This document shows, in pieces, positions 11,098 through 53,339 of a DNA stretch of 64,000 nucleotides. The stretch is from contig OZ029923.1 of NCBI GenBank assembly GCA_964023275.1, forward strand, positions 2,407,738 through 2,471,737, read 5' to 3'. This DNA is from Norana najaformis. Its lineage: Eukaryota > Annelida > Clitellata > Crassiclitellata > Hormogastridae. The stretch's first letter is position 1. Each line of letters begins with the position of its first letter. A program made the position numbers and the translations under genes. The notes below the pieces were generated by a model that worked only from the letters and a program-made list of their open reading frames with translations, ran no database searches and was not told the DNA's origin.

Positions 11098-14000
11098 TTA
11101 GTCGCCGCATTCCAGAACGTTTGGACACTTTTTACAAATGACGACCCCAGCGATGACCAACAGAACGACAACGCAGACGGTCACGATGATTGCAATGCGA
11201 ATGGCTTTGCCGTGTTTTGTCAAAGTCACTTCAGCTGCAAATAATTAAGCAATAGTTACGAGAACAATTAAAAGTCTCGTCAAATGCTAAGAGTTCATTG
11301 AAACTGAAAATGGCGTTATGTCTTCTCGAAGCATCTAAGACAATAGACTATTCTGCAATACGTTACCACGCGTTACAATGCTTCTCGTTACATTGGCCTT
11401 GTATTGCATCCATAGCATCACATGATATCAGAGCACAAATATCAATCCTGAATTAGCAACTGCCCATAGTCAGTTTTAACAGCTGCAGTTAGCGGGAAAA
11501 GCCAATGAGTGTTGATTGTGTGACACTGTCTCGTCGAAGTAGAATGCATGTTTAACATTAGCAAAGAACAATTCACGCATCAACTTCTTACTTACTTGAC
11601 TCTTTTTCGTGCTTCACTCCTCTGAATGCATTCCATGCTATGCATTTGTACTTCGCAGAAGACGTTCCGTTTTTCAGCTCTGCCACGACCTTCTCACCTT
11701 CTGTCAAAAGCTCCCACTCACTAGCTTTGTCCTCCTTCACCGACCATTGGAAAGTGACCGGTGGATTTGCATCCGCACTACAGGTGAGCTCTTCCCCGGG
11801 ACCAAAGTACAGCAATGGCCACGTCAAAACGTTCCTGGGGGAATCTGAAACGATATTAAGGCAACAATGAAATGCTGGTCTCGCGAGCCATTAACCAATG
11901 TACATCATGTCCAGAAAAAGGAACTCCAAGCTAAATCATAATTACCGAATAGGCTATATTTTTTACTTTTTCAAATTCTTAATATTATTCTTAATATTTT
12001 AATATAAAAATCCGATGATGTCAGTAGGCCTATTTTGCAGGAGTTTGTTAAATCCTCTTGTTGCAATCCCGTAACCAGAAATTCTTTGAGAAAACGTTTT
12101 GCATCATAATTTTAATTTTTGCTTAAACGTTTAATAAAAATCTATCTTCTTTAATGAAAACCATTATGAGTTAATGCAATGGTTCTCAATGTTTTTCGTC
12201 CCGAGGACCACTTTTCCAGAGTCCGACTTACTGCAGACCACCTACGTCCTATGGCCCAACGATTTTTATCAGAAATGAACAAATATGACCATTAAGGCAA
12301 AATGTCTTCACTATGACATGAACAGTGTCGTCACAGAAACCATGGAACAGATACCGTCCGTATTAAAAATGCAGGCTGTTTACAAAGCTACAACAACACA
12401 ATACAATTAAGGACGCTGCGGGAATATTTCTGTACCGCGGACCGCCTGACTCACGCTCGCGAACCACAAGTGTTCCACGGACAACACTTACAAAACCACC
12501 GAGGTGGATTAGCGAAAATAATTGCATAATTAAACGACCTCGTTTGAAGGGACCGTCCATAATCTACAACAATTAGAAAGTTAAAAAATAAGAACAGAAA
12601 CTCATAAACTTAAATTTGAAACATTTTTTGCTCTTCTTATTTGAGTAGGAACCCATCCAAAAACATTACATTCGTGGTCACCTGCATGTTCTAAGACTAC
12701 TCTTTTAAAGACATTAGAATAGGACTGTTTGATGTGAAATGATTTTCTAGCGGAACAGTAAGTTACAATATGTGCCGTGGTGCTGCACAAGACAACACTC
12801 TCGCCCTGCCTGTTCTATTATGATTGCTAATAAAATACATTTCACATATTAGTGAATCTAATTTTTCATTTGGATTGTCGTCTAAATTGACGGAATACTT
12901 ACACAGAATATCAAATTCTTTAGTTTCGCAGACTTTCACCAACACGTCACCCTGTTTAACACGAAATGATGCATAACACTCCAGCGTCTGAACCTTTGGC
13001 TCTTTAGCGACAGTTGACAAGGTCCCGTGAATATGTTGGACTTGTGAATTATCTTGTGGTTGACCTTCAGCCATTTCACCGTCTTTATCTAACCACTTCA
13101 CCTGAGGCTGTCCAATTCCATAGATTGTCGCATCGCACATATATTGTATATTGTCGCCTTCGGCCACGTCTTTGGTGGTATCAGGAGGTGTTGTAGTGCA
13201 ACTGGGTTCCGATTCTGGAAGAGAACGAGAAAGTACATGTTCTATTCAGATATTTCCAATTAAGACATGTAAACTAATCAGAGATTTACACAGACAGGCT
13301 TTTCCAAACGTTTCACTGCTTGCTCATCGGAACTTAGGTAGCACCCTTCACAAACTGCTCATCAGGACTTAGGTAGTAGTTTTCACTTCGCTCTTCGTCG
13401 GGGCTTAGCATATATACTTCGGGGCTTAGGTACTACCAATTACTGCCTTTTTGTCAGGATCTGGTTGATACCTTGTGTATCTGCCTATCAGAACTTAAAT
13501 AATACCTCTTACCGCCTAGTCGTTGGGACCTAGTTATTACCTATTACTTCCTGGTTGTCGAAACTAGATCATGACTTTTACTATACTTTCTGGTCGCGAC
13601 CTACTGCATAGTTGTAGATTCCATTAAAGCTTTGTTGTGAAAGTGTTTGTAAGGACATTCTGCTTGTGAAAAGGGCTCATGGTAGTGTGCTTACAAAGTT
13701 ACCATTTTGAAATTCAACTAACTTTGAACATTTATTTTTATCTGCCAAAATTATATTTACGCGGAATTTTGTTAAACTGCGCGATGAAACAATAGTCCAG
13801 AAATTTTTGTTACCGATTTTAGATATTCACTCATGGACTTGGGCTACTCTGTTTAGGGAAACCAGCAAAGGTCTCTGTGCTTTTTTTAATTTGACACATC
13901 CGTGTTGTATAGTTCTCGACTCTGAGAAAAGATTCATTTCATGATAATACCTGAAACTAGTGTAGGACTCCAAGGTAACTTACGGAATACGAACAGGTAA

Positions 14001-51600: not shown

Positions 51601-53339
51601 CATATATACATTCATACATGCATTGACTGATGAATTCAGTTCATGACAAAACTCAAAAACTAGTGTAGGACTCCAAATGTAACTTACCGAATACGAACAG
51701 GTAAACGCCGGCTGAAGAACCAGAGATGGTGCACTTGTAGTACAAGGCATCTGTCTGTCCGACGTTTTTGATGACAAGATCACATGTGTGCGTTAGAGTA
51801 TATTTAGCTTGAGCCGAGTTGGTCGTGATTGCGATAGTTGCAGATTCGTTACCCTTCTTCCACTGTATCTCTGAGCAACTACTTGAGCGAAACGGGCACT
51901 GCACAGTTACAGAGGTTCCCACGTAGGCCTTGGTGACTGCCACATTTGCGACCGCAACGCCTGCATGTATGAAGAAATATTTTCATCGGCTATACTGTAT
52001 GTATGTATTTATTTATGTCTGTTTGCATGTATGTATTTTGTGTGTATATATGTACGTATGTATGTGTGCATTTATACGTGTATGCAGGTCTGTAGGTTGG
52101 TATACTTGTATCTATGTATTACGTTTCTTTGTATGTATGTGTGTATGTATGTTTGTATTTTTTAAACATCTATGTACGTATATATATGCATATGTGTGAA
52201 AGTGTGTATGAATGTGTCTAAGTATGTATATATGTATGTATCTGAGCTTTTGCGAAGCTCATTTAAGGACCTCTCAAAGCCTGGGAAGATGGCTTTTAAG
52301 GGATCTAAACAGTTTCGTTTTAACATTATAATGAAACTGCAAATTAAGTTGCGTCAGAAGAAACAGTACTTCAGTTCACAGGAAAACTGTTCCGAAGGGC
52401 TGAACTATTGCACTGTATTGGACTTTATTGCACACAACGTAACAGTTACTGCATCATACTTACGGTATTTAAACAAAAGACTCTATTTTAATTTCTTGCT
52501 GACTAAAAGGCTTATTCAGCGAGGTCTTCTGATTATCTTTACTCTGCATGACAACGACACGGAAACTGAACAAACAAATTTGTTCTTCAGGATTTGACTT
52601 TTTGACGCAGTGAAGAAAACTTGTTTTCCAGACGCAGCCCTTGTGTGGCACTACGACATTTCGGTGATTTACATTACATCTACACTGCCATTCGATTACA
52701 TTTACATTTATCCACATCGAACGCATCAAAGATGAGAGCTCATGGCTTTTGGTGGATGCTCTGGAATCTCCTGCTGCCATTGTTCTGGAACTATTTGTGC
52801 ATCATGTTAAGTCCTCGCTGCGCAGCAGAGGGCTTTTGCTGTTGTTGCCCCATCTCTGTGCAATGGACTTCCGCTGTCGTTTCGTGCAAGGGTCACTGCT
52901 GGAGACAGAGCCGAGTCAGCTCGTTGTTTAAAGATGGTCTTACTTCCCCGGTGTTCTCATGCTGGAAGTGCCTCTGAGTAGTTTGTTCTGTAAGAAGCGC
53001 TATATAATTTATCAAATACAATACAATACAGTGTTCGTTTAGCAGGGTTTGTGTTGGCCTTTCAATAATGACTGAAACTCGTCTTCCTTGAGGAATAACT
53101 CGTCGGCTGATTCTGTGTCTTTCCAAACGCTTCGCCACCTGCTACCTTACCAACACGCTAGGCCTACCCTAATAATACAGCAAAGGGTGCTAGAAAAATG
53201 TTTAGCTCCATATAAACATTACAATGCTAATCTACATATACTAGAAATTTAAAAAGATTTTTTTTCTTTTAACGGCAATACCTGTAAGTGAAATGACTAC
53301 AAGCAGTCCAGCATGCAGCGCTATCGAAGTAAGAACCAT
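48647..53339 (-). CDS. Gene D: three-Ig type I membrane receptor (type 1)
   Basis: Exons 53339-53282, 51960-51688, 50902-50603, 49833-49582, 48765-48647, all phase 1; 1002 bases, 333 codons, open throughout. The signal peptide is MVLTSIALHAGLLVVISLT. The V domain shows VTVQC, SSCSEIQW, THTCDLVI and DALYYKC. Ig2 has YGIGKPQVKW and VCETKEFHTL. Ig3 has LICSADANPDASFYW and YKCTAW, with one extra codon in the EEKGEK loop. The TM exon starts LTKHGKAIRIAIGVTVCVVV but the helix then contains GGG, and the tail is only WKNYSS, without the cysteines of genes A-C. Neighbour F starts about 6 kb further upstream on the same strand, ending 1.6 kb from the gene D start. Confidence 0.85.
49000..49180 (+). repeat. 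AAT/AAC trinucleotide array in gene D intron 4
   Basis: Near-continuous AAT with AAC and AAG blocks. Confidence 0.9.
51005..51290. repeat. Degenerate minisatellite in V-Ig2 intron of gene D
   Basis: Diverged units like CATCGGAACTTTCGTACCACC, same place as in genes A-C. Confidence 0.55.
51985..52250 (+). repeat. TATG microsatellite next to gene D V exon
   Basis: Degenerate TATG array beginning about 35 bases from the V acceptor. Confidence 0.9.
52255..53010 (+). repeat. Duplicated intron-1 block with CR1/L2 tail (gene D)
   Basis: Third copy of the 7031-7850 block; the LINE tail ends AAGCGCTATATAATTTATC. Confidence 0.7.

Follow-up and report, generated by a model that had tools for sequence, protein, structure and literature searches.

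A tandem array of predicted three-immunoglobulin receptor genes with ITAM-bearing and short-tailed members in the annelid Norana najaformis

The subject of this study is a tandem array of immunoglobulin (Ig) domain receptor genes in the annelid Norana najaformis, part of which end in an immunoreceptor tyrosine-based activation motif (ITAM). By analogy, and as far as the excerpted texts of the sources go, the described systems nearest in kind are the Botryllus FF/FcoR genes, Hydractinia Alr and, among lophotrochozoans, oyster CgIgIT2. In the tunicate Botryllus, the FcoR and fester genes form a multigene cluster of type I receptors with V-type and two C2-type Ig domains, in which members with tyrosine tails have partners without known signalling domains, and the FcoRs feature a sushi domain together with an immunoreceptor tyrosine-based inhibition motif (ITIM) or a hemITAM (PMC12065747, in excerpt). 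The Alr complex of Hydractinia is a tandem complex of the Ig superfamily with 41 genes and V-set-like domains, and ITAM/ITIM-type motifs occur on candidates (excerpts of PMC11999971 and PMC12065747). Oyster CgIgIT2 is a lophotrochozoan Ig receptor with five Ig domains and an immunoreceptor tyrosine-type tail bearing an inhibitory-type motif (PMC11999971, in excerpt). In addition, the excerpted text of PMC5978004 finds Syk/Zap70 homologues only in those invertebrates that have CARD-CC/Bcl10 and places annelids among the Bcl10 phyla, so that an annelid Syk is implied, not stated; ITAM receptors upstream of Syk and CARD-CC/Bcl10 are postulated there, not named.

Here, we analyse a stretch of 64,000 nucleotides (the window), which corresponds to positions 2407738-2471737 of contig OZ029923.1 (C11 in the following) in the 608-Mb, 17-contig assembly GCA_964023275.1. 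A preliminary description of the window had proposed that four genes in it, A to D, belong to a recognition receptor cluster of three-Ig surface proteins. This claim gained both support and size, as A-D are part of a tandem array of about 350 kb, the largest class of which has a conserved ITAM exon; because of that exon, a signalling role of the cluster is better founded than it could be from the mini-tail genes. We consider it probable, with some reservation, that this annelid locus is a cluster in which activating ITAM receptors stand alongside short-tailed forms, A-D being among the latter.

The four paralogues were recognised from open reading frames and a self-comparison of the window. 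The same-strand arrangement and the five-exon plan attributed to them were borne out, since all four lie on the reverse strand and span 11098-53339 exactly, and the claimed 331-344 codons agree with hand-spliced GT-AG models of 338 (A), 344 (B), 331 (C) and 333 (D) codons. The common exon order is signal peptide, V-like Ig, Ig2, Ig3 and a transmembrane (TM) segment with a very short tail, and all 16 introns are GT-AG and in phase 1. Reading along the reverse strand, gene A comprises a signal-peptide exon of the MIAIVIVISSLTVFPTT type (15526..15577), the V-like exon (13984..14250), Ig2 (12903..13214), Ig3 (11596..11844) and the TM and short-tail exon, stop included (11098..11234). The corresponding exons of gene B are 25459..25510, 23325..23606, 22330..22641, 21270..21518 and 20815..20954. 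Gene C starts with a signal-peptide exon of the MVLTSIALH type (42710..42767), followed by V (41082..41333, for which the automatic model took a different acceptor), Ig2 (39989..40294), Ig3 (37162..37410) and TM with tail (36308..36438), and gene D consists of 53282..53339, 51688..51960, 50603..50902, 49582..49833 and 48647..48765 in the same order.

Pfam was applied to exons of three genes: A, D and E, the last being a divergent fifth gene. Scores over the cut-off were obtained for the V exons of D (Ig_3 31.2, I-set 27.8 bits) and E (V-set 28.3), while the V exon of A stayed under the cut-off; Ig2 and Ig3 of both A and D matched Ig models with scores under the Pfam cut-offs. Four cysteines and one tryptophan in Ig2 are common to A-D and the distant relative E. 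The AlphaFold model of the gene D V domain (mean predicted local distance difference test 82.3, predicted TM-score 0.72, eight strands) appears to fit an Ig sandwich, and a PDB sequence search gave generic Ig relatives, and for Ig2 only weak matches. The cytoplasmic tails are roughly 6-13 residues long (ICKKCPNVLECGD in A, VWRTCPKFCPSST in B, ICKKCLQCGN in C and WKNYSS in D) and contain no YxxL/I motif. Genome-wide, the A-D type of TM exon gave four matches, namely the four genes themselves, and the A-D type of Ig3 has five full-length genome matches at >=60% identity, which are A-D and a further gene of the array, Y.

The extent of the array became visible through the V exon of gene E, which has at least 69 matches in the genome, at least 35 of them on C11 at 2.135-2.486 Mb, with 32 of those 35 on the reverse strand (150 of 222 candidates were scored, and the counts are lower bounds). 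We annotated 314 kb of contiguous sequence (C11:2177738-2491737) and found 30 reverse-strand loci with a V exon, intact or broken. The largest class, 14 of the 30 and including gene Y, ends in the ITAM exon; A-D and a remnant, Z, constitute the second class. Two genes near 2.326-2.333 Mb have short tails of their own, the candidate TM exons of which end in YVLTRSGNR and FVRGCPGYRLCHTDTS; a gene at 2.485 Mb has a Cys-rich candidate tail. The remaining loci are E-type genes or fragments and a few partial loci for which no tail was found. At C11:2323809-2333251 and 2479727, candidate exons of array members, based on hydrophobicity and acceptor only, would encode differing short, partly Cys-containing tails. 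In exon trees, A-D and Y form one group apart from the rest, with support of 100/100 for V (2316470, which has a frameshift, and 2401022 removed), 100/99 for Ig2 and 100/100 for Ig3.

Genes of the largest class are predicted to have seven exons in the order signal peptide, V, Ig2, Ig3, TM2, CYT1 and ITAM, where TM2 is a TM exon of the GIGFGIGLLAAILLASIAFASLVKLGYLEFHRRPANQPRG type and CYT1 is a small exon. Third-position bias alone was too weak in the tail region; phase, splice sites and stop position revealed the ITAM exon, which was found by aligning the sequence downstream of eight of these other-type TM exons, with acceptors and frames of similar length. One example reads D.QQESAYASLGNDRDTNEYESLEQRKKVKPKKKSRP. 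A genome-wide search for the exon gave 19 matches, every one on the reverse strand and inside the array at C11:2132348-2364320; within the window, the ITAM-exon profile has no match. Fourteen copies reside in the 314 kb (11 in a 264-kb part), and five more at 2132348-2167989 were taken from the match list only, two of them with a stop inside the match. All 14 inspected exons carry YxxL-x8-Yxx[LIV], with L at the second site in 13, and 12 of the 14 match a strict ITAM pattern that includes an acidic residue at position -3. The general consensus of an ITAM is a cytoplasmic YxxL/I-x6-12-YxxL/I; 13 of the 14 exons match it strictly and all 14 if V is allowed, and A-D do not match it. Nine of the 14 genes are complete and open, eight of them in automatic models with a sound V exon and Y by hand. 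The first half of the motif, SAYASL, also agrees with the ITIM consensus, so these tails may have an inhibitory use.

Gene Y (C11:2364240-2372504; 406 codons, stop-free) combines the two main classes. Its first four exons, from signal peptide to Ig3, are of the A-D type and are followed by TM, CYT1 and ITAM exons of the other type. On the ectodomain side, homology with A-D covers positions from 2367889 on and, in pieces, positions as low as 2367117; on the tail side, homology with the ITAM group reaches up to 2366442. Between these limits, repeats of 100-213 bp at 2366788-2367766 match both kinds of unit, so the joint can be placed only to the Ig3-TM intron. Because all ectodomain introns are in phase 1, tails are exchangeable in principle, and judging from the structure of gene Y an exchange via an intron has happened at least once. 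The position of Y beside A-D illustrates how activating and tail-less forms within one locus can interconvert by intron recombination.

The claim that selection maintains A-D found support in open frames, in-phase indels and codon models. In pairwise comparisons of the V, Ig2 and Ig3 exons of A-D, each of the 24 indels has a length divisible by three; in four intron flanks and the 3' flank this holds for 22 of 148. Jukes-Cantor distances between the A-D flanks are mostly 0.19-0.51, with the exceptions of gene C before Ig3 (1.14-1.25) and the 3' flank of A and C (0.06). A neutral simulation of substitutions only, run at chosen distances of 0.08-0.12 substitutions per site, gave a stop-free chance of 0.01-0.05 per gene, which for four independent genes amounts to 1.5e-8 to 4.6e-6, and the neutral expectation is 3 to 4 stops in each of A-D. 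Mean omega (dN/dS) in A-D and Y is 1.10 for V, 1.51 for Ig2 and 1.17 for Ig3, none differing from 1 at p 0.05. Despite this average near 1, the stop-free frames and phase-keeping indels place A-D under coding selection.

Codon models further point to fast-evolving sites in the Ig exons. M8 was favoured over M8a in the ITAM group (p 0.008 for V, 4e-5 for Ig2 and 3e-6 for Ig3) as well as in A-D and Y (9e-4, 3.5e-6 and 7e-7, respectively). For the latter set, none of 12 null simulations for Ig2 and none of 12 for Ig3 reached the observed value: twice the log-likelihood difference was at most 3.04 and 3.16 in the simulations vs 20.18 and 24.07 observed. The ITAM exon, in turn, is under purifying selection, with an omega of 0.41 (p 2e-4 against 1).

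These data also bear on the idea that A-D are tail-less by-products of the array without function, drifting to loss and intact by chance. In its favour, broken relatives lie close by (Z, 2262222 and 2316470) and the mean omega is near 1. Against it stand the phase-keeping exon indels set beside those of the flanks, four stop-free genes where several stops each would be expected, 16 of 16 canonical introns, and the strong variation of omega among sites, unmatched in all 24 null simulations. We regard drift as very improbable.

Several observations weigh against the reading of the locus as a cluster of activating ITAM receptors with short-tailed companions. The motif as such is common: a regular-expression scan of 264 kb returned 24 ITAM-like strings, 9 of which are these exons and 15 of which are chance occurrences (6 in the window), so that the motif alone is not significant and the evidence lies in the conserved exon. 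The CYT1 and ITAM exons are predicted from conservation, phase and splice sites rather than from cDNA, and constraint is not clear in the other tail-side exons (omega 1.10 for TM2; 0.70, p 0.15, for CYT1). Of the 14 ITAM genes, five have a broken frame, a missing exon or no identified signal exon: 2262222 has a stop in Ig3, 2316470 has V in two frames (the automatic model called it intact, and we excluded it from the intact count), 2207389 has no CYT1, 2197109 has no Ig3, and 2301297 has six open exons, its signal exon alone not being found. In addition, the splice sites close to the TM exon are uncertain in 2187819 and 2235219. The second motif of gene Y is YEEV rather than YxxL/I, and its ITAM may thus be weak.

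Further points of this kind concern A-D themselves and the selection tests. The A-D TM segments are uncharged save one arginine at the outer edge. Pairing with DAP12-like adaptors relies on a charged TM residue, and such pairing is therefore not indicated for A-D. The codon models were run in a purpose-written, non-standard program, with the ITAM-group and V results standing without null simulation. Some codon rows came from broken genes, as the ITAM-group sets included open exons of the broken or incomplete 2262222, 2316571, 2197109, 2305140 and 2207389 and also took in 2359592 and 2485417, and gene conversion, which is likely given the A/C 3' stretch described below, can inflate such tests. 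In V, candidate selected sites show no excess at positions off the strands (Fisher p 0.17-0.32), and A-D and Y all have the same CTISGSS in the FG position, a constancy not seen in the third complementarity-determining region (CDR) of antigen receptors. Since the candidate sites show no loop preference, an antibody-like CDR mode is unsupported. Finally, at least 131 SH2 matches are present in the genome, some as close pairs, and Syk was not identified among them (150 of 207 candidates scored).

With these points weighed, we still favour an annelid cluster of activating ITAM receptors and short-tailed forms, and propose the following mechanism. The products of A-D would be single-pass, type I receptors at the cell surface that have three Ig domains and nearly no cytoplasmic tail, and the genes would be part of a tandem receptor cluster with rapid turnover. 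In the ITAM class, the same V-Ig2-Ig3 exterior would be joined to the ITAM end; upon ligand binding, YxxL-x8-YxxL would be phosphorylated by Src-type kinases, and the phosphorylated ITAM would serve as a docking site for a tandem-SH2 kinase of the Syk kind, making these activating receptors. A-D would have lost the ITAM tail or never had it and would most likely be non-signalling members, which might share or mask ligands as decoys or associate in cis with ITAM receptors, and tails would be swapped between genes through the phase-1 introns. The data show the gene structures, the array, the ITAM exon with its conservation, the hybrid gene and the signals of selection. What we infer is expression, ligand, phosphorylation, Syk docking, signalling, cell type, a function in immunity and the action of A-D as partners, as well as the innate immune or allorecognition role that had been suggested for the cluster.

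In this framework, the ITAM-exon array would provide concrete candidates for the postulated upstream ITAM receptors in an annelid. It further suggests that receptor clusters with such motifs, reported from cnidarians and tunicates and known from vertebrates, also occur in Lophotrochozoa. Rather more tentatively, and with less than even confidence, the cluster could be an annelid counterpart, of independent origin, of the leukocyte receptor complexes of vertebrates. About thirty V-type receptors, with an ITAM tail or none and swapping tails through phase-1 introns, would then supply the missing receptor input to the invertebrate route of Syk, CARD-CC, Bcl10 and MALT1, and coelomocytes would rely on them for variable recognition of non-self or allogeneic material.

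Set beside the described systems, the cluster by analogy looks built to work as a set of activating and tail-less receptors. Features of vertebrate KIR, LILR, CEACAM3 and Fc receptors include clustered Ig receptors, activating tyrosine motifs, tail variants and phase-1 Ig exons, all shared with the array; the array differs in that the ITAM is located in the receptor's own last exon, and orthology is not implied. Botryllus FcoRs differ from the array genes in phylum, in the sushi domain and in the tail, which here has a double-tyrosine ITAM. A sushi domain between V and the C2 Ig was sought in Ig2 of A, D and E, and no Pfam match was found at E<=0.1. Nor, for the most part, are signalling genes and partners adjacent as in the FcoR case, as the ITAM genes and A-D occupy separate blocks, and gene Y unites both kinds. 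Hydractinia Alr, from another phylum, is set apart here by description, not by sequence comparison; the domain order and tails of Alr are unlike those of the annelid cluster. Compared with oyster CgIgIT2, whose inhibitory-type motif we take to be an ITIM, the array is large and tandem, and the models of A-D and of the ITAM genes show three Ig domains, those of the latter with an ITAM, rather than the five Ig domains and inhibitory motif that define IgIT. Since defining features thus differ (no sushi match or adjacent pairs; three Ig domains and an ITAM), the cluster is not filed under any known system.

The same likenesses could be read as allorecognition in the strict sense, in which ITAM and tail-less partners would compare polymorphic self ligands, perhaps homophilically, in self/non-self typing like that of Hydractinia Alr or Botryllus fuhc. 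A tandem Ig cluster with tyrosine-motif tails beside non-signalling forms recalls the Botryllus FF/FcoR pairs (PMC12065747, in excerpt), the motifs on Hydractinia alr candidates (excerpt of PMC12065747) within a 41-gene family (excerpt of PMC11999971) offer a second parallel, and graft rejection is reported in earthworms and leeches (PMC2248247, in excerpt). The positive-selection signals in the ectodomains would also agree. The short-tailed and ITAM genes, however, lie mostly in blocks rather than in adjacent pairs, and the missing sushi match is unlike FcoR; on balance, we judge strict allorecognition unlikely, though it deserves more weight than the remaining alternatives.

Recognition outside immunity, for example in neural wiring or between gametes, comes to mind because, by sequence, Ig domains of neural cell-surface proteins come nearest, with those of Dscam, LRIG1, contactin, Robo and DCC giving the best matches of the V profile among solved structures, and because positive selection is also frequent in gamete proteins. 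These structure matches may, however, merely mirror the general I/V Ig fold, and an array of 19 ITAM-exon matches with several broken copies fits immune-type clusters better than wiring genes. We therefore see a non-immune role as improbable, and retain the reading as activating ITAM receptors with short-tailed forms.

The preliminary description had not recognised a described family, and this impression held. The spliced gene D compared with 5.8 billion proteins gave 2617 candidates, none at E<=1, in a collection where animal proteins may be scarce; among the titles and abstract openings listed for the open-licence annelid and immunoreceptor literature, none describes such a family. Within the genome, at least 29 of the at least 69 matches of the E-type V exon are on contig C2, which may harbour a second large Ig gene family. 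One C2 stretch (C2:5814001-5824000, about 2222-6991 within it, reverse strand) has a V exon (4e-14 to the array profile), then an Ig2-like exon and then a C-type lectin domain; the Ig2-like exon is weak (0.006) and without Pfam match, and Lectin_C scores 23.7 bits vs a cut-off of 22.6. The V head may accordingly occur also on lectin-type proteins. Molluscan FREP/CREP (VIgL) proteins are secreted, with a lectin or fibrinogen domain behind an Ig head, and the C2 stretch resembles them; the models of A-D and of the complete ITAM genes contain TM exons but no exon for a lectin domain.

The window also contains loci absent from the preliminary description. The divergent gene E (reverse strand) has a candidate signal-peptide exon (59324..59369), a V-like Ig exon (58426..58731) that is 31% identical to that of D, an Ig2-like exon (57094..57453) that is 22% identical to D, with the four cysteines and the tryptophan of D and no Pfam match, and, as a weak candidate based on hydrophobicity and acceptor only, a TM exon with short tail (54932..55113). 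Hydrophobic frames at about 46050-46161 and 54932-55113 (reverse strand) are similar to each other and are possible TM exons of E-type genes. Remnant Z, a 5' remnant on the reverse strand, retains a signal-peptide exon of the A-D kind (8120..8176) and a truncated V exon (6572..6718); Ig2, Ig3 and TM exons were sought for Z, and none was found. On the forward strand there are a broken E-type V exon in two pieces with an internal stop codon (33240..34023) and a fragment of an E-type Ig2 exon (19275..19367). The 3' parts of A (10338-11446) and C (35549-36667) are 89.8% identical across 1129 bp, far closer than the V exons, which suggests gene conversion or a later duplication.

Among seven open frames scanned in the window, two gave transposon-type Pfam matches. 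The frame at 1285-2934 (reverse strand) matches DNA_pol_B_2 with 34.7 bits and, weakly, Endonuclease_7, and is presumably a piece of a Polinton-like element. A DDE_3 transposase piece (57.6 bits), which we assume to be Tc1/mariner-like, is found at 62994-63638 (reverse strand). Two long frames, 30182-31888 (reverse strand, 569 amino acids) and 28233-29066 (forward strand, 278 amino acids), are without Pfam match at E<=0.001 and are perhaps transposon-derived. The window gave no matches in an Rfam scan (gathering threshold) or a tRNA scan.

Two further observations concern the assembly as a whole, and both point to an annelid; a mollusc was discarded as host on account of the first, and a tunicate, which the likeness to FcoR had suggested, on account of both. 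The C-terminal domain of the erythrocruorin linker, PF16915, which we take to be annelid-specific, has 29 matches in the genome (best 118.4 bits) and none in 14 control genomes, those named being prokaryotes. Nuclear copies of COX1 are located at C15:412358 and C15:570464, and a nuclear COX1 fragment reads INMRWSGLRLERIPLF under the invertebrate mitochondrial code, a stretch that we presume to be annelid-like, with AGA where serine fits.

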